Of a stretch of DNA of 64,000 bases, positions 28,501 through 64,000 are shown in pieces. Under the pieces are notes generated by a model that saw nothing but the letters and a program-made list of their open reading frames with translations, searched no databases and was not told the origin of the DNA. The stretch is from Morinoia aosen. Lineage: Eukaryota; Arthropoda; Malacostraca; Amphipoda; Talitridae. Within the stretch, counting starts at the first letter, position 1; each line of letters begins with the position of its first letter. The position numbers were made by a program, and so were the translations under genes. The stretch covers positions 52,889,602-52,953,601 of the forward strand of contig CM059563.1 of NCBI GenBank assembly GCA_030386875.1, written 5' to 3'.

Positions 28501-31500
28501 ATTTTTTAATCTGATATGAATTATTCACATAAAAATCATGTAAATTTTGCGTTTAAAAATTTTAAATTCTCACCACTGATGTTTCAGATTATCATTCGAG
28601 GGCACAACTATCAAAAAGATTATTTAGGTTTATATTTTTCAAAAAATAACTAGTATTTAACGCGTATGTTTCTCAAAACTACCTCACTCCTCAGTCAAAG
28701 GTCTTTTTTACATTAATTTTCAAAAATTTCAAACCTTCAATAACTCCAAATCCATTTAACATCTCCACTGAAACTCATCAACGAATTACCGGCAAATCCA
28801 ACCCCGTTCATACCCTGACGACCGTGGTGCGTTTATCAGAGCCTCTTGTTATCCACAATGCTTGGTTTCGAGTTAACCGCATTTCAGCTGCCCTGGGGAC
28901 CAGGCTCTCCTCACAACATAAGACAATGTGCTCAGAATATCTGTGGTGCCGCGCTCCCTCGCAGCCCAGCTCAATACGCAACTCCTCTTGACACGCCCGA
29001 TCAGATGTACGTGTTTGCCATGATAATTGTGGCCGCTGTCGAGGTGTGTTTGTTGAGGTGTGAGGGAAGTGTTGTAGCGTGTTTGTTGGGGTGTGAGGGA
29101 GAGTGTTATGGTGTGTTTGTTAGAGTGTGAAGGAGAGTGTTGTGGTGTGTTTGTTGGAGTGTGAGAGAAACTGTGGCGGTGAATCGGTCTTGATTATTGT
29201 CGAAAGGGTCAAGTCATTCGCTGTCGTGACTATGTTTTGTGTGCGAAATGTTTCTAATATCAAAACCTCTCACAGAAAATATTTCATGTGAGATGTGCGT
29301 GGATGTATTTTTGCGTTATAAGTTAACTGCGTGGAAGTAAAATGAATGTGAGATAGTTAGACTTTTAATATTACAATATTTTGCTGGAGAATGAGCATGT
29401 GTATCCCACGCCTTCGACTGCTACAGAATAACTGCAATGTTATTTTCAAATTAAACAACATTCAGAGAATTTTGAAATCGCTTATGCATTCAGCGATTGC
29501 AACTCCACAACGCTTAAACATAAGATGACAATTCATTTCACAAAATACGCCAAATAGACGCCTAATTTGTCCTTAAGAAGGGAAAGCATGCACCTGTAGA
29601 CGTCGATTGAATTCAAGTGTTCAGGTATAAAATTTCGAAGTCACGTAAATGAAAAATTTACGACTCTAAATATTTATGTTTTTGTAATGGTTTTAGAGGA
29701 ATTGGAAATCATTATTTTTTGTCAAATCAAATTTAAAATCTTGGCTCAAAATGCATCAGGGTGCTGTTGGAATTTTGCTGTCATCATTTCCCTTTTTTCT
29801 AATCGTACCTCTTGCACTTACGAGTTGATAAAAAAATTCCGTCTTTACATTACTACACTCGCACAATACCTGAAACCCTCCTTTGAAATTTCATCGTCAA
29901 TTCAAAAAATTAGTGTACCCTGTGAGTGAGGCCTAAACAGCTGCCACAAATATAATAAATCTGGTAAAAAGCCTCATTTTCAAAAATTCCCATCTATACA
30001 TTTCTACTCCCACACTACCTGAATTACTGCTATGAAACTTCAACATCAAGATATGAATCATCAGCTTAATGAAGAGAACTGTGCAGCTGCCTCAAATAAT
30101 GACGCTGTTACCATGGCTATTTTTCAAACATTATCAGCATTACATTCCTACTCTCTCAAACTTCCTGATATTTCATGTGAATCTTCAATATCAAGAGATG
30201 AACCATTAATTCAAGTGAAGTAAACAGCTGCTACAAAAAATATATCCGTAAACACGCCACATTTTAAAAATCCTCATCTTTACATTCTTACACTTTTCTA
30301 CACTTACTCCTATGGATGGCCTACTTTAAGACATGATTTATCAGTGCTAGAGAACTTAACAGCAGCCGCAAATGATAAATTCGTTAGCACGTCTCAATTC
30401 CCATCTGTACATTCCTACATTCCAACACGACCTGAATTACTCCTATAAATGCCCTACATCATGACATGAATCATCAGTTTGAGAGTACTGAACAGCAGCT
30501 ACAAATAACAAACCTATTAACGCATCCAAATTTCCAAAATTATCAAATCTTCATTCATTCTAACACTACCTGAATTACTCATATGAATCATCAACATCAA
30601 GACATGAATCATCATTTGAAGAGAACTGATCAGCAGCCACTAATAATATATGTATTAACGTACCCCATTTCCAAAAAATCTCAGCATTACATTCACACTA
30701 CCTGAACAACCTATACCTATAATGCCGCGCATCAAAACATTAATCAGAGTTCTAGAGAACCGAACGGCAACCCCCAAAAAACAAATGTATCAACGCACCC
30801 CACTTGCCAGCAGCTCCACGCCCGCTGCCGCCCCTCACGACAGCGCTGCCGAGGATCTTCGGAGGCCCGCCGCTGCAGTCGACGACGGTGACGGTGCCGC
30901 CGGTCTTCAAGCAGGAGAACAACACGGAACTCCACTCGCAGGTCGGCACCACCGCCGTGCTGCACTGCGCTACTGAACACGTCGGGGAGAATACGGTGCG
31001 TATTATTTATTTAAATTGAGTTTGCTGCTGTTTGTTGCATTTTAAATTTTTCATTACCGAGGATATTCATAATTCTATTGATGAGCTTTAGTGCGATACT
31101 GAACATATCAGGGAGAATACGGTGCTTGTAACTTCTTTAGCGTAACTTTGTGGTTATGTGTTCATATTGTGTTGCATTTTAAGTTTTTCTTTACCGAGGA
31201 TATTTGTAGTTCTAATGCTGAGCTTCAGTGCGCTGCTGAACATGACGAGGAACTTTTTTGACTGAAGTTTGTTATTTTTTCATACCTTCTTCTCTCATAC
31301 ACGTTTTATCTGCGTTATTCTCGGCTTAAATACTAAACCCTACAAACTATTAAACACGTACTGTGACAATGGTGCAAGCAATTTTTAATACGTATCTTCT
31401 GATCCATATTTGTTTTTATTATACCTTTGGTGCCTAAGCTGCCAGTGTTTCTAAAAATCTCAGCTGCGTACGTAGGTCGAAGGAGCTTACCTCATAAAAT

Positions 31501-34500
31501 ATGATTGTGGAAAGTCATTTACTTCGTCGAACTGCATCCTACTCTAACATTTGTCATTTCATTCATCAGTAGGGAATTTCAGGATTGGCCAAATATAACT
31601 TGAGCTCAACGCATTGTTTTATATTTTTAGGAATGTTAACAGAAGCGTAAGTTTGTTGAGTTGCACATTATGATCTAGTGAACATTCTAAAGTTGTGCAT
31701 GGAAAAGACGCATTTCTACTATTGAATAAGCAGTTGAGTTTGTTAACTGATAATTCATTACATTGCATGGATGATAATAGAAATTGCGGAATACTGCCTG
31801 AAAGAATTCTTTATTCATAGGATGTTCGCTTGCAGTATTTTTTCATTCTGGTCATTGGTTCACAAACTCACGATTAAGACCTTAACAGCTTTCAACTAAA
31901 CGTTTATTTACAGTTTTCGTTATACCGAATATTATTCTAACGCGAGATTTTATTCAAGTACAAGTTTGCATATGTTCGAAGGAAATTTGAAAAATTTTCC
32001 CGAGCAGATTTCATCCTAAATGAAGCAATTTCTCAAATCTGATTGGTACGTTTTGATAAGCTTACTTGAAAGCTGGATGACTCTCAATGAAATTGATTAT
32101 GGTTTGTTGGATTATTCTCACACATGTGCACACCGTCCAAAATGATGCGCTTTAATATTTTACTAGAATAAATTTTCCACGTGCGGATGACAAACAAATG
32201 TACTGTATCTCTCCTAATAGGACATGCGATTAAAATATCTTTTTACTTGTGCACTAGCGAAACTCGTATCACAAATACGTCCATTAAAATCCTTGTGAGC
32301 GTGACAAGAAGAAGGAAGAAGTAGACACCAAACAAATATAGGAATAAATAAACACAAAAAAAGTATTATTAGGTAAGATAGACGTGTTAAAATTTTTGTA
32401 CTTAACCCCAGGGTATTTTTACTTCACAGAGTGTTGTTGTCAGAGTATGATATGATATCGAATGTACCGAGAATGAACTGAGTGGAGGAACTCGAAAAAA
32501 TCCCCCGCTTAACTCACTAAAGTGTGCGTTTTTTTTATTTCTATCCTGTATTTTCTATCCTGAATTTGTTGCTCAGTAGAAGTGAAAGTGTTTCACAGCT
32601 CGCCTTTTTCAGTTAACGAGCAAAACAAATGTTTAACTCTTGTTTTTTTATTCTTTACTAAATAAATAAAGAATTATTATTGGATAAGAACGTTTTTAGA
32701 TACACTACAAACATTCAACATCAACTCGCCTGACAACATGAACTTTCAGAATACAACGAGCAATATCAATCATTGATTGACTCTAGCTCCAAAATGTTCA
32801 TGCTTTTATGCGTTGAACAAGGTATGGCATGTTTTACAGATTTGCAGATTTGTCTGGAAGGATCTCAGTCTTGAAATATGTGCAGATTACTTTGACAACA
32901 AATTATAACTTCTTTGACGTCATATCTCGAATGGGTCCGTTCTCGCAATATTTCTTTTTGTTATCACGCATCTGACTCGAAGAGCTAAGAAGTTGCTGCA
33001 TATGTATAGTCTATTCAAATATGCAGTCAGCTTTCACTCTAAATTTTGCCTCACCTTCAGACTAAAACACAAGAAGTCAACTTCTGCGCCTGGAAAGTTC
33101 TTACATTCTCGTGTAAGAAATGGAAAGACCAAATGGAATTCCGACACCAAAATTCACGGCCACTTTGGGCCTTAAGGGTTTGTCTGCTGGAAGCCTCTTC
33201 GAAAGTGAGACGAGAACTCGAAGTGACATCTGAGTGAAGAATAATAAACTTGAAACACTTGACTTTGAAAAGAGACACTAGCTTCTTCGAATCAAAGTTT
33301 ATTTGCACAAGAAATCTATGTTCTTCAGACAGGTCAGGATGGAGTACTTTCTTGGTGCACAAAATCCTATTTCAAAACCGGTGCAGTGTGTAAATAGAAG
33401 CAATGGTTTCTGTACGGCCTTATTTTTGTGTATTCCATGCACTGAAACTGCACACTCGCTACTGCAGTGCATCATACTTTGAACCACTATTGGCTTATTA
33501 TGACTATTTACAATTCAGTGCGGTACTGCCCATCTCAGCGGAGTTCAACGATGCAATTCCTGCAATGGCTAGTCACTTCATTGTTAGTTTCCACCAAATA
33601 GGAGCAGGGAGCAGGTCTCCTTTTGAACGATCGAAAGCTGTGGAAAGTGTAAAAATTCAGCTGTTTAAACAAGTTTTTCTTCTTGATCAAGTAGTTTGGA
33701 AGTGACTCGAGAAGCGAAGAATAAAATAAAGATTGTCATTCGAAATCTTAGACCTCGCTTAACAACATTCAAACGGTGAAGAAATGGTCATTGTGGATTT
33801 AGTAGTCTAAATAAATAGATGACGTTGACTCTTCTTTGCATGTCAGTTTCTGTTCCGCCTCTCAAATCTCCAGAGCCAAGACACAAAAGTTTGCGATGCG
33901 GGGCTAAAGTTTGTTCAAAAGCTTCAGAAAATATATTTCTTTGAAATAGTACAACTTTGGCTTGCAGAACATGGGCGTTGCAACTGGCTTAGACTATATA
34001 AAAGAAATTGAGGTTTTACCCATCACGAGAAATTACCCGCTTTTAGGTAGCGAAATTGTAGACGGAAAAGTATGAACACTATTCACTAACTGAATATAAT
34101 CGAAGTGAACAAACCTGGTTCTAAAAGTGCTTTGCCATTGTCTCCACTTTTCTTAACACCTAACACGGAGTAATGGACCCATTATGGTTGATTTGCATGC
34201 GCTCGTGTGTCTTCTGATACCAATGTGTTTCGGAGGTAAACTGTAGGCACACTTCATGATCCATATATCAAGGTACATTTTCTGTTCTTTTAAGCGTGTA
34301 CAATTGACGGAGTTCATTTACTCAAATGTCCGCTTTGCTAATTTCTGCCTGGTTTCACAATGTTTCCTTGGGTGAATGTTTTACACTTTTCTTATTTCAA
34401 GGTGTATCATTGACAACTTCAAAGAAAACACATATTCACGCCTCATAGACCTCTCAGAGTGGTCGTTTGAACAAAAATAAAATTGAAAATCCTAAATTTA

Positions 34501-37500
34501 ACATACATAAATATGAATTACCTAGGTGATCATCACATATCGCGAAAGTACGTATCAAGTAAGCAAAAAATTTTACTTCTTTTTTCGGAAGCACAAAAGG
34601 ACCCTTCCACAGAAAACCTGCCTTCAATAGGTACCATTTAAATTCACATTAAAGGTCAGAAAACTATTCTCAGAGACTATAGTGAAGCACATCATTTTAT
34701 TATACATTACGTGACAGATACAATGTGCTGAAAGTGTGCCTAAAAATTGCTTCGCTTCGAAGTCTGATTGAAAGGCAAACGCTAATCTAGAATGTGATGA
34801 CAGACAGAGAGAAGAGCTTCTAGATACATTCATGCAAACATTTGCTAAGGAAAGCTCACCTGAAAGATGATTACAGAGCGCGAACTGTAGTGCATTTCTA
34901 TGTCGCAACTGATTTGCCCTTTTAGGTGTGTTTGCATATCATTTGTGAAGGCGCATCGTGAATTCAAGCAGTAAACGGGAAATTTGAATTTTACTGATCT
35001 TAGTTCAGTTGCAGGTAGATTTTGAGTTTTCAGCCATCGATACAACTATCGCGAACTTTCCCCAACATCGATATAAGCACAAGTTTAACTTTCCAATAAC
35101 AATCAATAAAAATACGATTAAATTTTACCGTTACGACCACAATGAATTAACATACGACAAAGTTTTAACCTCATGACAATAACCGACTTCTGTACACACT
35201 GCTTGAAGTTTCGACACAAACCGATTAATAGAAGATGAAATTTAACATTATGGCCACAGCCAATTAATACACAAACCAAGAACATTAGTTGTTTTTTAGA
35301 AAAAATACACAATAGGTTCTCCATGGATTTTCTTCATGTATGTACTCATATAATAAACGAATCATGAAAATTGTTTTCAGTACTATGATGGTAATTTAAA
35401 AGCTTCCTCATTTTCAGTTCTATTAAAAAGCTCGTTGTATGATTTGACGAGCCAATTAATTTTTTTTCTCGCACTTCTGAAAAAACTATCACATCCATAT
35501 GATATCGGTTTACAGCTACAGTGCAAAGTTGAATTTATAATTGCATTCTTAGAAATTTTCTTATTGAATAAGTACTAAGGCCTCAACGAAGAGTGATTTT
35601 AAATACATTCCGTGTGGCTCCTCATATACATCTCAATGTGAGGAGTAATGACAGCAACAGGGTTCCTGCCAGCACGTTTGTTTAAAAAATAACCCTCTTC
35701 CATGAGAAAAGGTAACTGATACCGTCCTATTTGTATAGTATTCCTCACTGCTAGAATTTCGAGCATTAAAAGGGGTTAAGAATTTCCTGAGCTTTGGGTA
35801 ATAGCTTTTGTCGTCGAAATACGACCGTCGACGTGGCCGTTCATAAATCAAAAATGCCTTTGAGCTTTGGAAAGAGACATGAACATCAGCGTTTATGGAA
35901 GCGCGGGCCAAAAATGAAGCTAAAAAAGGTTGCTTGATGGAGGATCTTGAAAGGTTAACCACGGCTTAATTAGAACGTATGCTTTCTCATTAACTTGGAA
36001 CATGCTCTCGTTCTCAGCCATATTGGGTATAATGAGAAGTTTTTTAATTATATGGGATGGTATATGAAACCATGTTAGTTTATCACGAAAGATGTTTCAT
36101 GAATTTTTGGGCACGAAACTGACGAAAAGCATTGTTATACTAATGGCTGCACTAATTCAGAATTTTACTGGTGTTTGCTTTAGTACTTGCAGAATATGTG
36201 AGCCTTGTGTTAATTCCAATAAACAATAAACTTAGCGTCCACTGAAGACATTATTCAAGGCCTTGTATCATGTGAATTAGAAAGTTTTGAGAAACGTCAG
36301 CAATCACTTGTACTTATGTACTTCAAAGGATGAGGTCGTAATTATCACGTCGACAAAGATAGGTTAAACTGAAGTTCACTATTCAACTTAAATTTAAAGT
36401 AAAAATTATTAGCAATTTTAAAAACACCGAACATTAAATGGGTTCATTAAATACCTTTAATTTTAATAGATTGTTAAAATTTTCCATGCGACCCATCACT
36501 GAGTCGTTTTGCACCAGGAAGAATCTAAGCACGACTCATCGATGTGTCGTACCGCGGGCAACGTGTTAACAAAGTCACAAGCCAGCGTATGACCTAATCT
36601 ATTGAGAGTCGTTAATTAATTCACGGAGAGGAAGTTGAAAAAACGTAAAATTGTTCAACAGAAGGAAATTTGAAAGAAGCATCGTTTGTCAGGTTGTCAA
36701 AGAATGACAACCTGTGTCGTACATAGCACGCTAGTGAGAGACGGGAGAATCTGATGAAATCTCCGCTCCCCCTTGCGTTTATCAGATCACGGATTGCTCT
36801 TATTTTTGCTTTTCAAATACGTACGCTAACAGCGAAACGATCCTCTTAAGTCTCGTGTTGTATGGATTTCATGTCATGCCAAAGCTTAATGCAAATCTCG
36901 TTTTAACGCCGTTGCTCTTTTTATAATATTTACTGAGCACATGTGTACTCGATACCTGCAATACCTGCTTCAACATATCTCATTTATTGTTAATGAACGG
37001 TAATGTCCGCTGGCTTAACGAAAACTAATTTCTTTTGACTCATGAGCGGTCAGCACAGTTCACCCACATCCATCTTCCTGGATTTGAAATATCTTGAAAA
37101 ATACTCTTCGAAATGATCAACCTCATACCGTTGCGTTCTCTTGGAAGCACCTCAGACTTTACCACATGAATCGAAAAACATAATGATATTGATGACGGTT
37201 TTCTTCTTCATCTCCTGAAAGCACCTCAGTCTTTACCATATAGAAAGAATAATCGACGATTTAAGGAACACATTCTTTCTCATCTTCTGAAAACCCCTCA
37301 ATCTTTACAGCATGAACCTAATACTTTTATGACATTAATGAAAGTATTTTTTCTCGTGCAGGTGTCGTGGGTGCGGCGTCGGGACTACCACCTCCTGACG
37401 GTTGGGCTGGTGGCCTACAGCACGGACCAGCGCTTCAGCGTCCGCTACGTCAAAAGTGAAAATGTGAGCTGCTCTCGCTAACTTGTGTCTGGAGGTGTGC

Positions 37501-40500
37501 CTGAATGCTTGAAGTTATAGCTAGTTTTGGCTAGGATTGATATTGTGATTGAAGTTGGATCTGGACCTCGCTAGGTTTGGAATTATGTTTGGAGTTATTG
37601 CTAGTCTTGGCTAGGATTGGAATTTCGTTTGAAGTTGGATCTGGACTTCGCTAGGTTTGGAATTATGGTTGGAGTTATAGCTGCGCATGGCTAGGATTGG
37701 AATTATGATTGAAGTTGGACTTGTGCTTTGCTGGAATTAAAGTTCTGCTTGGAGTTGGAGCTGGGCTTGGCTTGGATTAACGTTGTTGATAATCTTTTTT
37801 CATCTAGTTCTGATGAAAAAGGCTTATCAAATATAATTAGTAAGGATTACTAAAGTGTAACATCAAATTGCGGCTCACTGTCTGTTGTTAGTGAACAGAC
37901 GACAGCCGCAGACTGCAAATTCAATGCCTTTATTGAAAATAGTTTTACGTTCAGATCAATAGAACAAAAGCACTGCAATCTAAGCTCTCCCCAAAATGTA
38001 ACGTAGTTCTCGTGAGCTTCACATGGCCTCATAATATCAGTCCATAACATTATTTCTATACTAATCTCTCATTCACATTTACAATACATTATTAATTAAA
38101 AAAAGGAGGACATATTTGTTCTCAATATGAACTAAAAATTGGGTCATACGGCACAAATTTTCAGCTGTGAAGCATGGTGTTGATTAAGAGAAAAATTGTC
38201 AATCACCCACTATGCTTGCGAATCTTTCCATAATAACCTCTATTTAAGGAGTTGAAGAAGGTTTAAAAATTTGAAGTTTACTTCCGTGTTCAAAATTCAA
38301 AGTTGCACCAATTGGCCGCACGTTGTGCTCGGTTCGTTGAAACTTTTCTTAGAGTCTGATGCCGGTGCTGACACGATGAACAGGTTGGAAATTGGTCGTC
38401 CTTCCGGCATCCATAACTGAGTTAAATTCCTGAGCAGTTTGGAAACAGATTACAAGCAACGATTGGAAAAGATCGCAAGCCATTGCCATCGATGTTTCCT
38501 GGTCGACGCCCTCTCAAAGATTGAGTGTTAATGTTCTCCGCAGCTCGGCCAAAGACCAGTGTTTATTGAGTCGAATATAGCACTTGAATTTACACTAATT
38601 TGTTCATACTGTGTAACCCATGAAAGGGGGATAGTTTGAGCCACTTCAAGGCTTATATTCGAGATCGAAACAACACTTACTTGATATGTAGTTACATTAT
38701 TTTAAATTTTGAAAAAGAACAGCGATTTAATCCATTCAGTTAAAGTTATATACTCTAAGGATAATGTGAAGCACGTAAAAAAGCTTAGAACGTCAATCCG
38801 TGTATTTTGTAGCAAAATGGTGCTTTAGAAAAACTATGTTTAGCCTCTGCAAAAATGGTCAAGCGGACTACGTTAGGAAATGAATATTCCCTAGCCCTAC
38901 GATCACAGTTCGAAACTACAGGCCGTTGTTGCAGTAATAAAACAGAAAATTGCAGGCGAGTGAACGCACCATTCCTGCTGTGCATATGGCTCTGGTGTTC
39001 GCATAAACGGAGTCGAGAATTGCAAATTTTCATTCGCTGAATCCTCTTTACCAACGCTTTACTGACGGTTCTGAAACAGCTCAACTCCTACCTCAACATC
39101 CTAAGTACTCTACGCTGTTTACACGCTGAAAAATTTCAACTGTTTACCTCTTATTGACTCTTAGGAATTACAACAATTCAACGAGAGTTCAACTCAGGAC
39201 TGTACATGGAGGCCATCATGAGTGTCGTCTTTTACAAGTCCTGAAAATACTGAGTACATTTTTTCCAATTGGACTGAATCAAAATGCTGAAATTCAGCAG
39301 AACAAATTGAAAGTGAAATCAACGTGCAAAACATGGTCCACAAACCTGCATATTAACGGAGCAAGTACAGCAGCATGCGACATTTTTTATATTCCTAAGT
39401 TGTCGATGCCTTAACATATCTGTAGAGCCATGACATGTAGTATTTAAATATGATCTATATTACAAAATGAGCAATATAAATACAGCTTCATCCGTTCTCT
39501 GTACACGCTATCGAACCAGAACGTATTTGTATGATGTCGAGTTATTGATTATAGTAGAGAAAGATATGAGCAAACTCGTGAAATAAAGATGAGCAATCAC
39601 GTTGTTCATCGTGTAGCTTCAAGCTAGGAAAAGTGTGCAAATTTGACGGTTTGTGTACTTTTCTTTCACTGCAGTCGAATACCATCTGACAATCTTTTTT
39701 GAGGTACGAATCCATTTTGAAACTTTCAAATGTGCGTAGAGCATAACGTAGACAAGCAGAATATAAATGTTGACAGTTTAAATAATTCCATTGCAAAAAG
39801 TCATAAACCTACCCTGAGACATCGTGATGTGAAGGTTGTGCTTCAAATTTCATCATGCGTGTGCTAGATAAATAAGGCCCTTGGAACACAATTTCTTCTG
39901 TTTACAAGTTGTAAACGTTACTTGCATGACTCGAGGTTTTATCTTTTTCTCACCATTAAAATGGATGACAGAGCTGAACAATGGGATCTAGGGCACTGAT
40001 CAGATATGTGTGAATATTTTTCCTAGTTCATGAGCCTTTTGTCCAGTAATTTGACTGTCAAAGTTCATGTGTGGCTTTTTTTACTCACAAGATTCGAAAT
40101 TGAACTATTTTTCACGTTTTGCTCACAAATTCCCAAGCTTCCAAAATATGCGGGAAAACAAATTATTGTTTGCATGGGGACAATCTACATAAGAGACTGA
40201 CATGTTTGATGGCAGTGTTCAAACCGATGGCTCATAGCTTTACAGATATGTTAAGGCATAGACAACTTAGGATAGATAAAAAGTGCGACAAGCTGCTCTA
40301 CTCGCTGTGTTAATATGCAATGAGCCGGTTGGTTCATCGTCTATGGTTACGTTTATCGTCTGTGGTTACGTTTATCGCCTGTGGTTACGCTTATCGCCTG
40401 TGGTTACGTTTATCGCTTGTGGTTACGTTAATAGGCGATAGTTAGGTTTATCGTCTGTAGTTACGTTTATCGCCTGTGGTTACGTTTATCGTCTGTAGTT

Positions 40501-43500
40501 ACGTTTATCGCTTGTGGTTACGTTTATTGTTTGTAGTTAAGTTTATCGCCTGTGGTTACGTTTATCGCCTGTGGTTACGTTTATCGCCTGTGGTTACGTT
40601 AATAGGCGATAGTTAGGTTTATTGTTTGTGGTTACGTGTTTTGTCTAATCGAAATATAAATGGAAGCTAAACATCTCGAGCTAATGATGCATTGTGTGTC
40701 ATTCTAGATTCTAATCATGTTCGCGTATATATATTTGCAATAGATACGAATATTCGCGTGGAAGATTCAGAGTGTATACATGATTACCGTAGTATCTGAA
40801 TTGCCATTGGTGTGTGTGTGGAACTAATGACACATCGAATGCATATTACATAGGTGCATCGTATACCATCCACTTAGGTAAAGAATAATTCTGTGAAGTA
40901 GTACAATATATGCAAGATGAGTATTAAGATCAGTTTGTGCAGCTTCTTTTTTATATTACACGTCTTGATTGTGAAGCTAACTGTATGAGCAAAGGCTGAA
41001 CAAAATATACGATTAAATGGCATAAAAGAAAGCATTTGTTGGCAGGTGTACAGTAACCGTTGGTTCGGTATTTAAAAACTCTGTTTTGTGGTGTAGCCTA
41101 CAAATGTTCGACATCATAGACGACTTTTAGGCCTTAGAATAACAGCAAAATCTGCAATGAGTTAACATCGTTTTAAAGCATAAACGTATCATGAGTTTTT
41201 TTAATCTGTTAGCTTGAGAGTTACCGAAACAAAATTATTGGAAAAATGTTTCTCTGAAATAACGTTTTGTACTCGATAAAATTTAATTTCTACTTTATGT
41301 ATGCATACACTCTTCATGGGCTACTTGCGTTTCATAAAGTTAAATGCTAGATATATCTACTATCTTAGCATAAATTGCCTACAATATTAATATTCAATAA
41401 TTAATCAAGTTGAAGTTTCGTCTCCAAAGTTTCGTAAATGTGATGAATGTTTTCAAGACGCAAGTAACAGGCCATTGTACTGCTGATTGCGACGCTTAAT
41501 GAGTGCCCAGACTCAAGCTATTCACTTTGTTGAAAAAATTCCCTCAATTTTTGGTTTGCCATTCATTTATACTCCTTAAAAACAGTAGATTTCAATTCAT
41601 GTTGAATATTATAGTATAGAGCGCGGAAAAATATTTGAAGAAGACTATGATAACAAGGAATAAAAAGTGTGCGTGTCCAGCGGTCAATCAACTGCAAAGC
41701 TCACAGAGAACATGCAGTTGATCATCCCTAAATACTTCTTTTTTTGACGGTTTTGCAGGACTGGCAGTTGCACATCCGCTACGTCCAGAAGCGCGACGAG
41801 GGAGTTTATGAATGCCAAATAGCGACGCACCCGCCCATCAGTCTCCTGTCCACTCTCCACGTGGTCGGTAAGTGCAGAGGGTGCTGTCAATAGTTCATTA
41901 ACACTATTCAATGACTGGTACTGAGTGCGGTGATTGAAAGCGTCCAGTTTCATATTCTCACACGATCGAGGGAATATATGAAAACCAACTTGCTGCTTAT
42001 GTGTGAGCTCTGAAAGCTGGTTTTCTCCTGCTCAAGAAAGTGTTTGAATGGAAACAGAAACGTTTTTAGAGAAATTATTTCCGCTAGAAGCTCGTTGAAA
42101 ATTAGACGGCGTCAATTCAACATTAATGCGTTTGGGGAAAACACAGGTCGCGTCAGATGTCCTACGAGGATAAAAGGGAATTTTAAAGTATTCTTCAAAA
42201 CTCATATCACGCGTTAACAGCAAACCTGAAGCGAGCAGCTGAGCTTTAGACGCGAAAAAGGACGTCATTTTAATGGAAAGGGAAACTTAAGTGAGCGACG
42301 GAGTTTTATACGCGTAGTACTGTATTTTTTGGCGTGTGAGTTCACATTTTTTAATTTGATACGTTTTAATGGGAAATGGAACCAAATGATGCATAATCAC
42401 TTTTAGACGCGAAAACAGGGCTTGTGTGTTAATGAGAACAGAACCCTAAACGTGGGGCAGGCAATGTTTTACGTACAGCTAGAACTTGCGTTTTAATGAG
42501 AAGAGAACTTTTAACACGCAACAGGTAGTGTTTTATGAGCAGTCAGGACTTGTGTTTTAATGAGAAGAGAACTTTTAACGCGCAACAGGTAGTGTTTTAT
42601 GTGCAGCCTGGACTTAGGTTTTAATGAGAAGAGAACTAACGTGCAGAAGGTAATGTTACACGTGTAGCCAGGACTTGGGTTTTAATGAGAAGAGAACTAA
42701 CTTTCAACCGGTAGTGTTTTATATGCAGCCAGGACTTGTGTTTTAATGAGAAGAGAACTTTTAACGCGCAACAGGTAGTGTTTTATGTGCAGCCAGGACT
42801 TGTGTTTTAGTGAGAAGAGAACTTTTAACGCGCAACAGGTATTGTTTTATGTTCAGCCTGGACTTGTGTTTTAATGAGAAGAGAACTAACGTGCAAAAGG
42901 TAATGTTACACGTGTAGCCAGGACTTGGGTTTTAATTAGAAAAGTACTAACGTGCAGCAGGTAATGTTACACGTGTAGCCAGGACTTGGGTTTTAATGAG
43001 AAGAGAACTAACGTGCAGCAGGTAACGTTACACGTGTAGTCAGGACTTGGGTTTTAATGAGAAGAGAACTAACGTTCAGCATGTAATGTTACACGTGTAG
43101 CCTAGACTTGGGTTTTTAAAAGAGGACCTTAAACGTGCAACATGACGTAGTTCCGCGTGCAGCCAGGAAGCCCTAAACTAGAGCGGTAAACAGACACGTT
43201 GGATGTAAAGGAACTTCAAATGTGTAAACAGCGAGCCGTTATCGAGCAAACAAGGATCTTTAGATGAGCAGTAGATTTAAATTTGTCCTTCTTAGCCCTC
43301 AATCGACCCACCACCATTGATTCGTTGATGGATGTATCAGGGAGCTCAACGTCAGAGCCGTGACGAGATATCTATATTTTCGTTGGATGATCACACGTGT
43401 TCACTCTAATGAAAATAAAAAATGATTGTTATAGCACCAACAGTGTACTCATTTTGAAGTTTAATTCACGGTTTGGGCTAGGTAATGCCATTACGACAGC

Positions 43501-46500
43501 TTAGAAGTATGGAACTAGAGGCTTTTCCCACACGTAATATGGAGTCAGAGAATAATTTTTCAATAAAATGCAATTCTGAAGCTCTAATATAGCCATTCCT
43601 AGTTTTTAACGATCATTACTTCTTGAAAAAATTATTCAATTTGTTTTTTCCCCTCGGATAAAATATCTCAATATTAAGGTCCAAAGTTACACTTGGGATC
43701 AAATACTAATTGACGTCAGTGAGTTTAATTGTAAACAAAAGTGCAAAGAAACACGTTTTTAGAAAGATGGATACCTTATTTAAAAACGTGTTTCTTTGCA
43801 CTATTATTTCTAATTCGAATTTGAAAACGGCAAACCATTTATACATCCATAAGTGCAATTGGCATTGCCTCAACATATGAGCAGCTGCTTATTTGGGGCG
43901 AAAATCTTCAGAAACAGCTCACGTGGCCATCTGTTGCACACATTGGAGTCCTGTTGGGCCTTTTGCTAGTTGCGACAATTTGCTGCACTATTTATGCGCA
44001 GCAGCTCAGGTAGGAGTACAAAGTAGAGTGCGTGCTCGAGGGCTTCGTTTGCAAAACGAAATTACTGTTGATCTATTTTTGTTCATGTCTTGTTGACATG
44101 TTGGTGATGTGATGTCTGTATACCATGCAGATATCAATATCGGTACACAGGTCAGTTACCTTCACCTAAGAGTGAGGATGCCTCGCTGAATGAACTACTC
44201 TCCGGGCCTTATTTCGCAAAACTAAAAGATATTCTTCCAAGTGCACATCCAGCAAAATAGCGAGCAGAGCTTTAAACATGAATTGACGACTCATAACCTT
44301 GGAATGAAACATTTTATTTATGTTTCGTTCATTTCTTTAACGAAAATTTTTACTCGCAGAAAAATAGTTTCCATCATTGGTATCAAAATTTATTGCCCTC
44401 TCGTATTCTGGCTTAGCGTTAAATGGCGGCGGTAAAAAGGTGCGCGTAACAATTTTGACGGTGTTCAAATGATTAACAACCTGCAACGTTTTTGTAAACA
44501 CTTCATTTTAAAAAGAATTAAGGAGTTATGACCAAAGAATCTTCTTCTATAACAGTAACATTAGAAATGTGAGGCTTTGTTTAATACAACAGACATCAAA
44601 TTCGACACGCTTTCTTGCATCATTCTCTCATAGATATCATTGTACATTCAATTTCTTCTGAAGTATTTTTTAATTTAACAATTTAAACAATTTATTTACC
44701 ACAGGAGATACAGAGGTAGAATGTTTCTTAAGTCTAATACAATGGTCAGAGTTGAGTATAGCTACCTGTGGGCCCGAATAAGTTCAGCGACTTCTAGGGC
44801 ATCCTACCATTACATTATTCTAGGGCGTACAATAATGTTTAACCTAATTCACTTAGCCTAGTTTCGCATTAGACTAATCAACAGGATAATGAACTCGATA
44901 TTGATGTTTAATTTTACAATATAGGTCATATGGACAATATTTAACAGTATATTCGATAACGATTTGGGAGCAGACTGAAAATCGGCGATATTACTCATGG
45001 CAAATTGCATTATTAGGACCAGACATGTAGGAGGCAGGATTTGACTTGGTGATCTTACACGACTAGTATTCTGATAAGAAGTGAGACTCAAGATTTCTTT
45101 TAAATACCTTGTAAGAATTACTTTCACGGATCTCCGCAGGTATTGAGTTCCAGGTTTTAGTTCCAACGAATAGTATACTATGTTGCGAGCGGGCCTTTGA
45201 ATAATAAGGAAGCATGAATTTACTTTTATTTCGTGTTAAATGGTCGTGATGACCAGTTTGCGCAGTTAATAACTGTTGAAGGCTATTGTCGCCATCATTA
45301 GCTAATGTTTTGTAGATGAAATTGCAGATGGAGATTTTGTAGAGATCCGAGAGTTTAAGTATTTGTAAATTTTTGAATGAATCATTTGTGTGAGCATTAT
45401 ATTCTAGGTTCTTTACCGCTCTGATGGCTCTTTTTTGCAGAGTAAAAATTATATTTAATAATGCTAATTTCACAAGTGAGATTATAAAATCTTCCTTACT
45501 AAAATGTGATAATGTACACACTTATCATTCGCAAAACTGCACAAAATATTGCAAAGGTCGAGATCAATGCTTCAGGGAGGCTTTCAATGAAGGGGCGTAG
45601 CGAAATTATCGCGTGTCCGCACTGGTCTACCGAGTAAAGTGGCCAGCTGAGTCTCCCATGCGTACGAGAGCAATTTTACACCCACCAATTCTCTATGTAG
45701 GTAAATAAGCAACTCAAAAAATCCATGGGTAGAAAGTACATTTCATTTATTTTTGTTGTGTGCACGAACCTTTCCATCGCATCTTCCTTAACATAATATC
45801 AAAACTACTTTTAAAATTTGATGTCATTTAACTCTAGAAGAAGTGTGATTTGTAATTAAATTTTTTATTTACTGTAGCTCAACATGATGCTTGGAAACAA
45901 ATTGCAAAACATTTTATGACTGTTGAAATTAGGATGAATTGATTTCTCTACCGAGAGATTTAACAACCTGAAGTATTTATACATAATATTATTTACAATA
46001 GCTATTGCACAATAATTCTTGGGATATAGCAGATGAAAGAATCGAGAATGTTTTTGCTTACATACATACTTTTTCCGTTTTTATAGTTTCACGAAAAATG
46101 TTGATCAAATAAAAATTTGAAGCAAAAGCTTAACAACTGGTGACAGACAGAGTCAAATTTTGTCAAATTATGTCAAGTTTTAAATATCAAATTTGAATAT
46201 CAAATCACTTTGAATAAACTTTATTCTGACGTATATTGTCTTCAATGTCAAGTTAGATCTTGAACTGAAAGGCCATAAGCAGATTGTTGTCTTCCTTCCG
46301 AGAGAATAGCAAATGTTGTAGTTTCATTAATTATTCAATATGCTTAATTTCAACCCTTCATCACAAAGTCACAGAGTCGCTCAAATATGAACGAGTTCAA
46401 CACTTCAAAGCTCCATGTAAGAGCCGCCAAGCTTTGAGGACTTCACTTGTTAGAATACATTTTTTCAATTTGAGTCGAACAGTACCTTTGAATAAAATTA

Positions 46501-49500
46501 TGAGATACGTTTGTTTGTGTCTGCAGAAGAATAATATAAATATGTTTCAATTTTATCGATAATGAATTTTATAATGCACACCGTTCATAAGTTTCTGTCT
46601 CAAATGGCTGGTTCTTGCTAAATTCCTGCGTCCGATATTGTAAAGTCATACACTAAGAAGTGTCAGTTCGCTAGCGAAGTTCGGTTGTGAATTTTATTAT
46701 CAAAAACAACTGAGGCGATCTTCTCGAGATCCATGCACTTACTGACACTGTTCAAGTATGAATATTTCTTTTCATTTACTGAATGTAACGCAGCAAAGCT
46801 CTGTGCTTTACTGTCAAAAGTTGTAGACACTGAACATCTGAAAACTGAATAATTGGTTCAGTTATTTGGTTTTAGAAACAATATGAGAAACATGAGACAA
46901 GCATTGAATCGATAAGAAATTTTTGAAATATAAGAACAAATACGCATTGAATCAAATTATCTGCAAATTTTTGCTTACAACAATCTTTTGAAAAGGTAGA
47001 ACAAAGACACTTGATAGTGAAATTAGTACGGTTTTTGCAATATGAATAAAGTAATTTTAGAAAATATAGTAATTGTGCAAAAATTTTTGCTTATGCATGT
47101 ACTCACTAGGCATTTTTTGCTTTTGCATGCATTCAAAATGTATTTTTTGCTTTTGCATGTTCTCGTAAAATATGTTTTGCGTTTGCATGTACTCACTAGA
47201 TATTTTTTGCGTTTGCATCCACTCACTATATATTTTTTTGCGTTCGCATGTACTCACCAGATAGTTTTTGCATTTGCATGCACTCACTAGATATTTTTTT
47301 GCGTTTGCATGTACTCACTAGATATTTTTTTGCGTTTGCATGCACTCACTAGATATTTTTTTGCGTTTGCATGTACTCAGTAGATATTTTTTCCGATTGC
47401 CAGAAGCCACCTCGGAGATCCTGGGCGGCCCCGAGAAGTACATGACGATGGGGAGCTCCCTGCGCCTCGTGTGCGTGCTCAGGAAGAACACGCAGCCGCC
47501 CACCTACGTCTTCTGGTACCACAACGACAGGATGATCAACTATGACACCAAGGTAATCACTTTTTTAAAGTTGGTAATGAGTTTTCATATAAATTTTTCA
47601 ATAACATCTGGTAATTTGACTGAAGTAATGTAATATAATTCCTTTTTGAAGTTGGCTATGCCTTTCAATATCACTTTATAATAACATCAGTTAATTTCAC
47701 TCGAGTTATTTAACATAGGTGATTTCACCCAGTTATTTCACATCAGATAATCACTTTTCACCATCGTTTGATCTCTTATTTTTTCCTTCCTTATTGATTG
47801 AATTTGTTCACATGTAACTGGTTGAGAATCGCGCATTTTAGATGTGAAACTGATAACCATTCGTAAGATTGATAATCCATCAATACCCTCAATTTCCATT
47901 CAAACTCAATATTTCTGAAACGATCTATGATCAAAGGCAGCACCTTGAAACCAACAACAAAATAAAAGATTGCTCTGAGCATTTTGGTTCATCTTCCTTC
48001 AAAGGAGCTGCTTGATCATTTATTCGTTTTGGAAACCAATTCAGTCAATGAGAACCTGCAACTGTTTGTGACAGTGCTGATGAGAATGCTAACTTTCATT
48101 GTTTTCTAACTTAGGTGAAAGTGGACACCGGAGGAGAAGTGAGCGTGCTCTTCTTAGGCGAAGTGGGGCCGCAGTCGTCCGGTAACTACACCTGCATGCC
48201 CTCCAACGCACAGTCCTCGCACATCATCGTCCATGTCCTCAGAGGTCAGAAAACAATTCAGCAACAATGAATAATTCATCAACAAAGTGCATATTTGAGA
48301 GTGAAACTTTACCTCACTTCCTTTACAACACCCAGTAAATGTGTCTTTGATAATGACACTTAACCTGACATCCTTTACAACGCCCTGTAAATGTGTATTT
48401 GATAATGAAACTTTACTGCACTTTCTTTACAACGCCCAGTAAATGTGTAATTGATGACATGATAATTCACATCCTTTACAACGCCCAGTAAATGTGTATT
48501 TGACGAAACTTTACCGCACTTCCTTTACAACGACCAGTAAATGTGTATTTGATGAAAATTTACTGCACTTCCTTTACAACGCCCAGTAAATGTGTATTTG
48601 ATGAAACTTCACCTCACATCCTTTACAACGCCCAGTAAATGTGTATTTGATGAAACTTTACCGCACTTCCTTTACAACGCCTAGTAAATGTGTGTTTGAT
48701 GACACTTAACCTCACATCATTTACAACGCCCAGTAAATGTGTATTTGATAACGGAAATTTACCGCATTTCCTTTACAACGCCCAGTCCTCGTACATCGTC
48801 GTCCATGTGCTCAGAGGCCAGAAAACAACTCAGCAACAATGTATTGGATAGTGAAACTTTACCCAACTTTCCTTTTACATTTTCGTGATTCTGCAGGTGT
48901 TAGTTCTGCAGTCATGAGAGTAAAACCGGTTGTCACCATTGATTTATTTCATTGCTTGATTAAAAGGTTCTGCGATCTAAATAGGCTATGGCGAGAATGA
49001 TTTTCAGCTAAATTGATAGGGTAATTGGTAAATATTTAACCATTATTTTATGTTGATGGCATCACTTGAACTTAAATTTGTTATAAGTGTTTGAAGTCAC
49101 TCTTAATTGTTCTTGGATATGTATTTTTCTTGACCTTCTTGACCTCGGTAGCGAAAATTAGAATTTCTCAGCTGGTAAACGTATTTCTTCGAAATCATCC
49201 TTGACAATTTGAGCGGTAACTACACCGACAAAATTTTCTGCAAACGCGAACACTGCGCAAGATTATTCTTGAGTTCCTTGTATTTTGAAAATAAATAAAG
49301 TTTGAATCCTATTTTGATATAATTTCTGCAATGGAAACACCATAAAATAATACCGATAAAAAGATGCTCAGAATAATTTGACTTTATATTTCATATTCAT
49401 ATTGTTCATCATTTGTAGAACCTGTTTAATATGTAAATGGACTAATTTTTGCACCGATCAGAAGCGGTAATTGAAATGGAACCTACTCTCCTCAGGACAT

Positions 49501-50914: not shown

Positions 50915-53405
50915 GCGCATACAATCGCTTACAAAAGAAACAACAAATCAATCAAACAGATGTTGTTTCTCCGTAAAAGTTGCGTGTCCCTATAGACTTT
51001 AGTTCAATGTCACTCTACTTCAGTAAATTTGATCATGTTTTAGTATAAACGATCCGGGCGTCCAATGTTCGCAAAGTAATGAGTTATCTTCTAAGGCTGT
51101 CTCCATTGTCAAGCGAGTCACATTTTGTAAAAGTATCAGTGCATTAGGATTAATTTTAAATTTGGTTGATAAATTTCTCTGATTCAGTTGAAGGACAATC
51201 ACTTTCTCCACCAGTCTGAAAAAATGTTTTATCAACTTTCTGAAATATTGGTAATGTAAAACCTACCGAATATGTAAGTTCAATATGTGTATGGTTGCTT
51301 CCAGGGCAGTAGCAGAAAATGTAACCGGTAAATGTTATTCTTATGAAACTAAATTTTTAATAGCATCTGTAAAATTTGCTGTAATTTCCCCCTTTACCAG
51401 AACAATGAAATGTCGCTATGGTTTCCTATAATTAAATAAGTACCTAAAATAAAATATATTTCAACCTGTGCTGAAACTTAATGTTTCAGCCGTGCATATG
51501 CTTTCATGAATCTCTTTTCATATTTAAAAAATACATGAATGGGAAAATAACAAATACGTTTTCTGGCTCTTGGTTCGCTATAAATTTTAATTGAAATTAT
51601 GAAACGTTGAAACTGATTTTACCTTCGAAATGATGAGTTTTTCTTGAACAAACTTATGACACGTATGAATTAAAAAAACTATTTAGATTCCCTAATCAAC
51701 ATCAGTTTTCAGAATGTGTTGTCCTGTAACTTTGTAAATATCGGATGTACTGTAAATATGTGAATGTTATTGTATGACACAGTGTGAATTATCATAAGGT
51801 CCTCGTGACAATATTACTTAATACCTGCAGGAAAATATGTGTGGGTTGTTCATTTGTGAGCTATAGTTCAGTTTTCATTAAAATATTCTAAGAAAATTAA
51901 ACTTTTCCGCCACAAGTTACGAAAATTAACTGCGCTCAAATGGTTAGTAAGTTTATAAATACTGCGTCTGCCAACGTCATGTTAGAATATTCTAATTTAA
52001 CCTGCAAAAATCTGAACTGATTTGTGTAAATAGCGTAATGACGTCAGGTCGATCTAGACATGTTTTGTTTATAAAGAAAGATTGATGTTTGTGTATCCAA
52101 TTTTGATTATCCTTACATAGATATTCCATTGAACATCTTCTATTGAAACAAATATACAAGACTTACAGTGCTTTTTACCGAGCATATATAATATATACTC
52201 GCAGATATTTTTAAAGGACGAGTAGAAGGTTTAAGGGCACCATTGAACGAGGTTTAATTTTATACTCATTACTAGGTTAGATTCTTTAGCATTCGAGAGA
52301 ATTTCTGCAACTTGGAATGCTACTAAACATTTTAGCTTTAGGTAATATATAAATTTTCCAAGCTCACTCAATTCACACTTTCCTTGCTGTTCGTAAAGTA
52401 CAGTTAAACCAAACGCTAGGACTGCCGACTAATTTTAACGCACATCGCATCAGTATTAACTGACAAGATAAAAGACTCAAACGTAACATCGGAACGTACC
52501 ATCGATGTATCGAACGTGTTTCTGGGAATATTTGAGCCCGATAATTTCGAGAGCAGGGCCTTCTAAAAGCTTTACTCTGTACCACGCTCTGATAATATCG
52601 CCCTTTGTTTGAAGTGGTTAGCACAAGTTTAAAATTAGTTTCAAATTCATCAAATAAGTTGAAGGATCGACGTCGCTCATTGCTTGTTTGCAAATGAAAT
52701 TATTTTTGAACAAGAGAAATTCCTTTTAATCACTTGATGATTAAAATGTTTGTTTTACAATGCTTTTAAACACGTCATTAGAATCCAAAACCCAAAATCG
52801 ATGTTTTTGACTGCCTTTTTCTACAAAAACCGTTGTTTATCAATGATCATAAGTAGTGGCAATTATTTTTAACTTGTAACTATTCCCCAAGACTAAAACT
52901 CAATGGTATCTTTACTTAGAACGAACATAGATTGGACCGTAAACTAACAGCGCCAACTACGGATACCAACAACTGAAGCAAGTTTGTTCACAGGTGAAGC
53001 AAAGCCCGCGAGCCCCGGTACGAGGTAAATAACTTCCTCATTTGTCAAACTGATCGCTCCAATCGACCTCAAATCGCCCTCTGAACGAAGCAGTAATCTT
53101 AGAGCAGCGGTGTCGAGGATCGATCATACCTAAGCCTTGATCTCAAAGGCATGTGCTAGACTTTTTTCGGTCCGGCCAAGGTGTCATGACGAAAGAATGG
53201 AGCTCGCTTTGATGGCAATATGCTGAAAAGTTTTGAAAGGCTTCAATGAATGCTTAAGAACCCAGAAGAAATTATTCATTTCATTTCAATATTAGATGAT
53301 CGTGTTGCCTGGATTAGGATGAATGAGGAATTACATTCAAAAGAAACATATAAAAAACATTTCATATTTTACCATCAATTTCTTTTCTAACTTTTCAGCC
53401 CTACG
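50915..53405. other. 3' flank of the Dpr gene
   Basis: AT-rich with no recognised gene. The minus-strand frame 52373-52693 (106 codons) has no motif. A possible alternative Dpr exon at 52994-53028 is listed separately. A somewhat CG-richer patch surrounds it (about 52980-53180). Confidence 0.45.
52994..53028 (+). CDS. Possible alternative last exon or microexon of the Dpr gene
   Basis: After TTCACAG the sequence reads GT GAA GCA AAG CCC GCG and so on. Joined in phase 1 it gives GEAKPASPGTR and then TAA at 53026-53028. It is phase-compatible with exon 6 directly, where it would give VHVLR-GEAKPAS resembling the GE-x-PA motif and a short secreted form. It is also compatible with the internal donor of exon 7 at 50695. 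Alternatively ACGAG|GTAAAT is a donor and this is a microexon. The one-in-three phase match and short length make chance quite possible. Confidence 0.2.
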
Positions 53406-53515
53406 AAATAGTTCAATTTCTTCACGTGTAAGTTGGTTAAGAAATGCACCTATCATTTTTGTACTAAAACACAGCAATTCATTAAAATCTATATTTCTGT
53501 CTAATTATAAAATGC

Positions 53516-53551: not shown

Positions 53552-53888
53552 AAAAAAAGAATAATTTTCAGTCACGTTGGAAAAAAATGCAGAAACTAAC
53601 ACTCAAGTAATATAGACTAGATAAGCAGATCACAAAAGACGAAAGCGACTAGACAAAATAACAACCTTTCTTACCACAGAAATAGTAGTATGACTAGATT
53701 TATTGTACAAAACCGATGTTCATCACACGAGAGACAAGAGCAAAATGGTTGAGCAGCTTCGTCGCACCTAGCAAGCTGAAGTTCTGCGAAACAGTTTGAG
53801 AGCGAAAAAATGATTCGTGTTTTCATTAAGGGGAGATTTAAGTTCATGAATGTGTAATGCTTCAACTATATGAATATGATCTTTTTTA

Positions 53889-54256
53889 ATAAATCGTCTG
53901 CATCTGGGGTCAACGATCTGGACAAGGCCAGAGTGATTTATCAATTTAAATGTAACCGAAGAGAATGCAAGTCTCTTGATAAACGTTACATTGGCATGAC
54001 CAGAATAACCCTCAAGCAAAGATTAACCGCTCATAAATATCAAGGTTCCATTTTCAACCATTTTTGTGTTGACCATAGTTGCAAACCATCCAATGAAGAT
54101 ATGTTCCCTAACACCAAAATTCTGTATAATGTTATTAAAAAATATCATATTCACATAATTGAAGCGTTACACTTTCATGAACTCAAACCTCCCCTTAATG
54201 AAAACACGAATGATTTTTTCACTCTCAAACTGTTTCGCAGAATTTCAGCTTGCTAG
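53889..54256 (+). pseudogene. GIY-YIG endonuclease domain of a Penelope-like element
   Basis: Truncated N-terminally, because the frame begins inside the linker (SSASGVNDLDKAR) right at the inversion breakpoint, so the reverse transcriptase that normally precedes it is missing. The endonuclease itself is open through to TAG after RRISAC. GIY is VIY, a conservative change common among Penelope-like copies as far as I recall. It is likely inactive as part of a truncated copy. Confidence 0.75.
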
Positions 54257-54714
54257 GTGCGACGAAGCTGCTCAGCCATTTTGCTCTTGTCTCTCGTGTG
54301 ATGAACATCGGTTTTCCACAATAAATCTAGTCATACTACTATTTCTGTGATAGAAAGGTAGTTATTTTGTCTAGTCGTTTTCGTCTTTTGTGATCTGCTT
54401 ATCTAGTCTATATTACTTAAGTGTTAGTTTCTGCATTTTTTTCCAATGTGACTAAAAATTATTCTGTTTTTTTCCAGCCTGGTATGATGTTTGATACGTC
54501 GAAACGTTGCATTTTATAATTAGACAGAAATATAGATTTTAATGAATTGCTGTGTTTTAGTACGAAAATGCTAGGTGCATTTCTTTACCAACTTACACGT
54601 GAAGAAATTGAACTATTTTACTATCACTATAAAAGAAATAAATTGACCAATTTTCCGCGCACGCGTTTTGTGGGCAGAATAGGCGAGCATTTTGTCCTTG
54701 GATCGGAATAATAT

Positions 54715-60617: not shown

Positions 60618-61280
60618 TGTGTGTCATGCAGCATCCACGATGTGCCGTGCAGCATTCACGGTGTGCCGTGCAGCATCCACGGTGTGCCATGCAGCATTCA
60701 CGGTGTGCCGTGCAGCATCCACGATGTGCCATGCAGCACTCACGGTGTGCCGTGCAGCATCCACGGTGTGCCGTGCAGCACTCACGGTGTGCCGTGCAGC
60801 ATTCACGGTGTGCCGTGCAGCATCCACGGTGTGCCATGCAGCATTCACGGTGTGCCGTGCAGCATCCACGGTGTGCCGTGCAGCACTCACGGTGTGCCGT
60901 GCAGCATTCACGGTGTGCCGTGAAGCATCCACGGTGTGCCGTGCAGCATTCACGGTGTGCCTTGCAGCATCCACGGTGTGCCGTGCAGCATCCACGGTGT
61001 GCCGTGCAGCATTCACGGTGCGCCATGCAGCGTCCACGGTGTGCCGTGCAGCATCCACGGTGTGCCCTGCAGCATCCACGGTGTGCCGTGCAGCATCCAC
61101 GGTGTGCCGTGCAGCATCCACGGTGTGCCGTGCAGCATTCACGGTGTGCCATGCAGCATCCACGGTGTGCCGTGCAGCATCCACGGTGTGGCATGCAGCA
61201 TCCACGGTGTGCCGTGCAGCATCCACGGTGTGCCGTGCAGCATCCACGGTGTGCCGTGCAGCATTCACGGTATGCCGCAA
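60618..61280. repeat. 21-bp GC-rich minisatellite
   Basis: About 31 units of GCAGCATCCACGGTGTGCCGT, each with one to three substitutions (CATCC/CATTC/CACTC, CCGT/CCAT, ACGG/ACGA). The unit is a multiple of three without stops in most frames, so open frames of 100-268 codons appear in several frames on both strands at once (for example CRAASTV and IHGVPCS repeats on plus, HTVDAAR and HRGCCTA on minus). This simultaneity argues they are artefacts. The array is strikingly CpG-bearing in an AT-rich setting. Confidence 0.95.
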
Positions 61281-63855: not shown

Positions 63856-64000
63856 TGTAAATCCAATATTGGAGACTAGAAACACAAGGAAATGACCCCG
63901 TCGCATGTTTATCACTGCTATTTCTACACAAGATAAGGTTTTCATTTTCGTACTTACCTTCACACTTGAAAACAAGGCGTCGCAGAAAATTCTGTAATAT

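Follow-up and report, generated by a model that had tools for sequence, protein, structure and literature searches.

Tandem arrays ending at exon edges and intronic copies of splice junctions in a Dpr-like gene and other genes of the amphipod Morinoia aosen

Tandem duplication at exon–intron borders has been described in a few systems. In human genes of segmental duplications, minisatellite-type tandem repeats lie at exon–intron boundaries and can alter splice-site use, and 27 intron modifications are reported after inspection (PMC2812944). In the potato RdRp gene, a tandem genomic duplication is reported to cross an intron–exon boundary and to carry the splice signals along (PMC4974935). In Drosophila, exon–intron structure was described as being reshaped by intron sliding and by tandem duplicates of exonic sequence that contain a proto-splice site (PMC2891723). 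In Daphnia pulex, also an arthropod, tandem-repeat density is highest in introns, and the terms “splice”, “exon-intron” and “intron boundaries” are absent from the main text of that article (PMC3152781). Here we describe a stretch of 64,000 nucleotides of Morinoia aosen (contig CM059563.1, hereafter C8), called the window, in which a Dpr-type immunoglobulin gene is bordered by tandem arrays at six of ten mapped splice junctions, and compare it with 123 exon edges elsewhere in the genome. A study by Zhuo et al. 2007 is said, by its title, to derive human introns from tandem arrays, i.e., to concern intron origin.

The present pattern resembles the human case in the position of minisatellite-type repeats, the potato case in the copying of splice signals by a junction-spanning duplication, and the Drosophila case in the remodeling of exon–intron structure by short tandem duplications. 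As described there, the human case is limited to recent duplicates and to intron gain or retention, whereas several gene families of one genome are affected here; the potato gene is one case with a new intron, whereas multi-copy arrays are also found here beside existing exons and inside existing introns; and the Drosophila introns take novel positions inside coding sequence, whereas the copies described here lie in introns. Junction-crossing duplication is already known, both as isolated cases and in human duplicates of recent origin, and what may be new here is its frequency. An earlier examination of the same DNA, made from its letters only (hereafter the sequence-only reading), had known of no standard description of such a pattern. 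Single precedents are published; among the matches listed from the open-licence literature, outside which most subscription papers lie, no title or start of an abstract described multi-copy junction arrays as a frequent feature of an animal genome.

The genome comprises 1.99 Gb in 29 contigs. Five exons of the host gene, A–E, were mapped in the window (Table 1), giving 10 junctions, and exon 1 and the last exons of the gene lie outside this map. The borders were called from sequence without transcripts; all of them are GT/AG, and a splice scorer gave identical borders, save that exon A started 3 bp later. The joined exons align with Drosophila Dpr4 (6eg0 chain A) over both of its immunoglobulin (Ig) domains, with an E-value of 2.5e-48 and a single 4-residue gap at the D/E join, and Dpr4, Dpr2, Dpr1, Dpr10, Dpr6, and Dpr11 ranked above all DIPs among PDB entries. 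Judged by the sequence pattern that its two Ig domains carry, the host gene is Dpr-like. Its B acceptor and C donor agree with those of the paralogs.

Head-to-tail copies of units of 10–100+ bp, i.e., minisatellite-type tandem arrays, were detected using Tandem Repeats Finder (TRF). With relaxed TRF settings, the share of sequence in arrays with a period of at least 10 and a score of at least 100 is 11.8% in the window; three neighboring 10-kb stretches gave 0%, 29%, and 11%. An array of score at least 100 (the limit for all distances given here) lies within 60 bp of 6 of the 10 mapped junctions, namely the acceptors of A, B, and D (2, 46, and 4 bp away; units of 135/138, 72, and 30/61 bp) and the donors of B, D, and E (42, 10, and 58 bp away; units of 40/80, 80, and 49 bp). 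Although the A donor is 186 bp from its nearest array, the exon end, donor, and intron recur there as a diverged copy of 101 bp at a spacing of 126 bp, and this brings the number of duplicated or array-bordered junctions to 7 of 10. These are the same seven flanks that were named in the sequence-only reading, i.e., the acceptors of its exons 2, 3, and 5 and the donor sides of its exons 2, 3, 5, and 6; its numerator of seven was recovered, and its denominator of twelve is replaced by the 10 mapped junctions, exon 1 lying outside the map. Its wording that arrays begin or end exactly at splice sites did not hold, as they lie 1–57 bp off or cross the site. Exon C (604 bp from the nearest array at the acceptor and 496 bp at the donor) and the E acceptor (187 bp) are unaffected and form counter-examples within the same gene. 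When the 10 junctions were rotated through 20–60 kb of the window, an array of score at least 100 lay within 60 bp of 1.42 junctions on average versus the 6 observed (P = 0.0048). The P value was 0.011 for a score limit of at least 60, 0.0048 for both at least 150 and at least 200, and 0.047 for at least 300. With all weak arrays kept (score at least 30), the test was not significant (P = 0.09–0.31), indicating that the rotation result hinges on the exclusion of tiny repeats that arise by chance.

A near-identical copy of the window gene was found 2.46 Mb away on the same contig (C8:55384602-55401597). The identity of the fetched pieces was 99.7% for the B region, 99.5% for D–E, and 96.8% for A and for the first 2 kb of the C region. 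The exon-bordering arrays of this second copy occupy the same places with nearly equal copy numbers, and the array 496 bp past exon C spans 927 bp there versus 806 bp in the window.

For the comparison outside the window gene, exons were sampled by gene family and not by arrays, the window gene alone having been chosen for its arrays. The sample drew on 8 V-set loci (of 13 matches); on the best 30 matches each for myosin heads (of 79) and kinesins (of 126); on 16 of the 146 Dpr-query matches, taken from high up in the list; and on 8 of 79 ion-channel matches chosen without seeing their flanks. From the 68 search loci, 20 were dropped as near-copies, including L055, which duplicates the bordered L054. 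The remaining 48 loci had 96 edges, of which 17 were dropped (weak splice scores; both edges of L048; the donor of L057), leaving 79. L083 was dropped from the 16 paralogs as a near-copy of L080, both edges being bordered, and 2 of the 16 ion-channel edges were dropped, which lay in loci without an array of score at least 100. The final sample contains 123 oriented edges from 68 loci, and is small and uneven by family.

An array end of score at least 100 lay within 60 bp of 23 of these 123 edges, versus a mean of 3.7 for positions shifted within the same flanks by 200 bp or more (up to 1300 bp), which are not independent within a locus. None of 5000 such draws reached 23, the maximum being 10. 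The enrichment of array edges near splice sites that the sequence-only reading had proposed to look for throughout the genome was hence observed in this sample. Bordered edges amounted to 2/37 for myosin, 6/29 for kinesin, 2/14 for ion channels, 5/13 for V-set/Ig, and 8/30 for Dpr paralogs; among them, the donors of L004 and L054 lie 50 and 59 bp off. Six edges were set by hand (the acceptors of L007, L008, L054, L080, and L091 and the donor of L079), four of which are bordered, and without the six the count is 19 of 117. Using match limits in place of called splice sites, 11 of 92 edges lay within 60 bp of an array end. When shifted positions that fell inside arrays were counted along with those close to an array end, they amounted to 18.0 of 123 (standard deviation 2.4), for which the observed 23 gives P = 0.03. 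This indicates that the pile-up consists mostly of arrays that stop at exons, plus a modest excess. At a score of at least 80, the corresponding numbers were 26 and 18.7 (P = 0.0048), and at least 200 gave no significant excess (17 versus 15.2, P = 0.28). The sample speaks strongly for a concentration of array ends at exon edges, and weakly for an attraction of arrays by exons.

Copies of the junction itself were examined using 20 exon and 20 intron bases, with at least 27 of the 40 matching ungapped within about 1.2 kb in the next intron. They were found at 18 of 133 edges, the window gene included; of 665 controls in which the junction was taken from another exon, 2 gave such a copy. Among exons chosen by family, the junction of about one edge in seven thus recurs in the adjoining intron. 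Eleven of the 18 belong to the 23 bordered edges, 5 to other sampled edges, and 2 to the window gene (donors of A and E), where 30 and 41 bp of exon are copied. A gapped version of the test (18 + 25 bases) gave 22 of 119 edges versus 2.4 expected, with the window gene in and the ion channels out. An echo of exonic 36-mers based on match limits had little power and was superseded by the junction test. A profile of 43-mers at 109 edges, without the window gene and ion channels, showed nearby copies for 1% of those starting at −90 and −120 in the exon, 5% from −60, 8% for those made up of the final 43 bases of the exon, 15% for those at the junction, 16–23% for starts 0–100 bp into the intron, and 10% at 250 bp. 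This smooth profile speaks for duplications that run across the splice site instead of beginning there. Whole-exon duplication was rejected as their usual origin, as the 43-mers at −90 and −120 are copied at about 1% of the 109 edges.

Two Dpr paralogs on contig C7 serve as examples. In L007 (C7:72584551), a 73-bp unit composed of the last 35 exon bases, GTGAGT, and intron is present in seven copies at 95%, which form tandem donors; an in-frame TAG is common to 5 of the 6 intronic copies and absent from the exon copy, suggesting later amplification of an intronic copy that had already decayed. The 107-bp unit of L086 (C7:56117225-56118792) takes in the donor and the final 50 bases of the exon, and six further copies match the functional one at 97–98% identity across 20 + 20 bases. 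The GT is kept in 6 of 6 extra copies of L007 (C7:72583051-72586278) and 5 of 6 of L086. Both loci are good candidates for a splicing assay. Junction copies occur at the same donor in L086 and its C7 paralog L090, with differing units of 107 and 132 bp. Furthermore, arrays intrude 6–41 bp into the exon at the acceptors of L077, L087, L081, L054, and L070 and at the donors of L078, L053, and L095. Where a unit contains a junction, it was copied from that junction, so the units of different junctions are unrelated. Among donor copies, GT is intact in 22 of 26, versus a rate of 0.78 for other adjacent base pairs, and among acceptor copies AG is intact in 7 of 11, versus 0.61; GT/AG is thus neither clearly preserved nor purged. 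Unit lengths showed no preference for multiples of three (6/23). Function through conservation of the reading frame or of splice sites in the copies was considered, and neither the GT/AG rates nor the unit lengths gave a sign of it.

We consider it probable that tandem duplications straddling splice junctions, of which one copy was kept as the exon edge, explain this pattern. The genome would make minisatellite-type tandem duplications at a high rate, with units of about 20–170 bp at exon edges. Some of them would straddle a splice junction and be tolerated, since the outermost copy could still act as the exon edge, and the remaining copies would fall inside the intron. There, these copies, made up of the exon end, the splice site, and the start of the intron, would decay and amplify further, while the exon copy would be held by purifying selection. 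Deep intrusion into exons would be rare, so that arrays would appear truncated at exon edges and their ends would pile up there, with no special initiating process. The intronic copies presumably evolve near neutrality, because GT/AG is neither kept nor purged and the units ignore the reading frame. Several observations weigh against this explanation. A clear copy of exon bases was found at just 2 of the 7 affected window junctions, the acceptors of A, B, and D and the donors of B and D being without one, and likewise was lacking at 12 of the 23 bordered edges. A straddling origin is only a possibility at these five window junctions and 12 sampled edges, where either decay or a purely intronic origin may apply. 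The process is uneven among genes (2/37 edges for myosin versus 13/43 for Dpr/Ig, the window gene apart), and the window gene, with 6/10, exceeds even the rate of the Dpr family, though it was picked for its arrays. Finally, array coverage was 0.21 at 30–230 bp from exons versus 0.126 at 430–630 bp (P = 0.008 by sign flips by locus, with ion channels and the window gene outside this test), a gradient that uniform duplication does not predict. The near and far values were 0.344 and 0.202 for the Dpr family (P = 0.022), and 0.123 and 0.077 for myosin and kinesin (P = 0.11). Across six settings, coverage within 260 bp of exons was 1.5–1.8 times that at 400–630 bp (P = 0.0026–0.027).

This gradient, together with the excess of bordered edges at score limits of at least 100 and at least 80, is what would be expected if exon edges themselves seeded tandem duplication, i.e., if replication or transcription trouble at the borders, through R-loops, spliceosome or nucleosome barriers, or the change of composition between exon and intron, favored breaks or slippage. 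We regard such seeding as unlikely: the excess is small and not significant at a score of at least 200, copies continue smoothly into the exon without a break at the splice site, and myosin edges show no excess. Seeding linked to splicing is unnecessary for most of the effect, with the 1.5- to 1.8-fold excess of coverage left over. Of the inference drawn in the sequence-only reading, the edge fixed by selection agrees with the junction copies, whereas the special break process is mostly not needed (23 versus 18.0). A related idea, that in this lineage junctions are hot spots where tandem duplication starts and that introns lengthen outward by repeated junction copying, leaving rows of decoy donors and acceptors, is similarly doubtful; if it were true, introns would grow and alternative splice sites would arise from one source. 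The gradient and its modest size would also be accounted for by dilution. Selection acts against insertions near exons, and if transposon insertions are purged there, the older, transposon-free intron beside exons would hold a larger share of arrays. Dilution requires no link to splicing and would be an addition to the straddling duplications rather than an alternative, since by itself it leaves the junction copies unexplained; we rate it as quite possible, though somewhat short of an even chance.

Dpr proteins are neuronal recognition molecules, and the GT retained in the extra copies of L007 and L086 would suit duplicated junctions that are functional, with tandem donors or acceptors serving regulated alternative splicing or stronger exon recognition. 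This is very improbable in view of the GT/AG rates, which are not clearly better than those of other bases, the unit lengths, which disregard the reading frame, the in-frame stop in 5 of 6 L007 copies, and the occurrence of the same pattern at kinesin and ion-channel exons. Errors of assembly, by collapse or expansion of repeats at exons, could be suspected because many near-identical gene pairs share one contig, maybe as unpurged haplotypes; yet the second gene copy repeats these arrays at the corresponding exon edges, and decayed copies with 64–85% match are not expected from such errors, so we give this the least credence of all. The frequency of junction copies makes this genome a test bed for intron lengthening, for the tolerance of decoy splice sites, and for whether duplication prefers exon borders as its starting points.

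Table 1. Mapped exons of the Dpr-like gene and tandem arrays or junction copies in the window.
Feature	Position	Strand	Evidence or remark
Decayed 135–138 bp array, 1–2 bp before exon A	29928..30809	+	Relaxed TRF, 6.4 copies, 64% match
Exon A (exon 2 of the sequence-only reading; first half of Ig1)	30811-30995	+	GT/AG, Dpr4 alignment
Copy of exon A end, donor, and intron start, 126-bp spacing	31092..31192	+	Score 63; 30/40 junction match
Third partial copy of the A donor	near 31226-31257	+	Read by eye
72-bp array, 45 bp before exon B	37137..37316	+	TRF
Exon B	37362-37463	+	GT/AG; protein 100% identical in second gene copy
40/80-bp array from 41 bp past exon B	37505..37778	+	TRF
19-bp mid-intron array bordering no exon (counter-example)	40332..40637	+	TRF
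Exon C	41759-41867	+	GT/AG; nearest array of score at least 100 beyond 490 bp on both sides
61/250-bp array, 496 bp past exon C (counter-example)	42363..43168	+	Relaxed TRF; 806 bp
30/61-bp array stopping 3 bp short of exon D	47084..47400	+	TRF
Exon D	47404-47552	+	GT/AG borders
80-bp array from 9 bp past exon D	47562..47754	+	TRF
Exon E (end of Ig2)	48115-48244	+	GT/AG borders
49-bp array, 57 bp past exon E	48302..48786	+	TRF, 9.7 copies
Copy of exon E end and donor at far end of 49-bp array, GT to GC	48787..48844	+	Score 86; 36/40 match

The paralogs also differ from the window gene in exon structure. In 10 of the 14 paralog exons fetched for that region, B and C form one exon of 211 bp, exactly 102 + 109, and the remaining 4 end earlier (162–168 bp); the loci set against the B–C intron were L076–L083, L087, and L091. 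The B–C intron of the window gene (37464-41758) is therefore not common to all paralogs and, on this comparison of sequences, may have been gained or repeatedly lost. Some Dpr-query matches on C7, C16, and C20 look split near the B/C join. The Dpr query gave 146 matches at E ≤ 0.01, many of them in separate loci, which suggests that this genome has a large Dpr/DIP family even if part of the assembly is duplicated. Many other matches also occur in near-identical pairs about 0.7–15 Mb apart on one contig, and such gene pairs may be unpurged haplotypes (alleles) or segmental duplications.

Some further features of the window were noted. The open reading frame (ORF) at 49966-50874 (+), 302 residues from stop to stop, had no Pfam match at E ≤ 1, and the other ORFs of the window gave weak or chance-looking Pfam matches, or none. 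The ORF at 53858-54253 (+) gave weak, below-cut-off GIY-YIG matches, and we take it to resemble the endonuclease end of a Penelope-like element; it is flanked by ORFs at 53337-53504 (−) and 54520-54711 (+) that read as inverted copies of each other. An ORF fragment at 45063-45521 (−) had no Pfam match at E ≤ 0.1, and reads like the C-terminal end of a non-long-terminal-repeat (non-LTR) reverse transcriptase. A near-perfect hairpin was seen by eye at 43739-43803 (AAGTGCAAAGAAACACGTTTTT and its reverse complement), which is perhaps a small inverted-repeat element. The arrays at 60619-61277 (21-bp units) and 63145-63859 (105-bp units) have units that are multiples of three and show long open frames on both strands.

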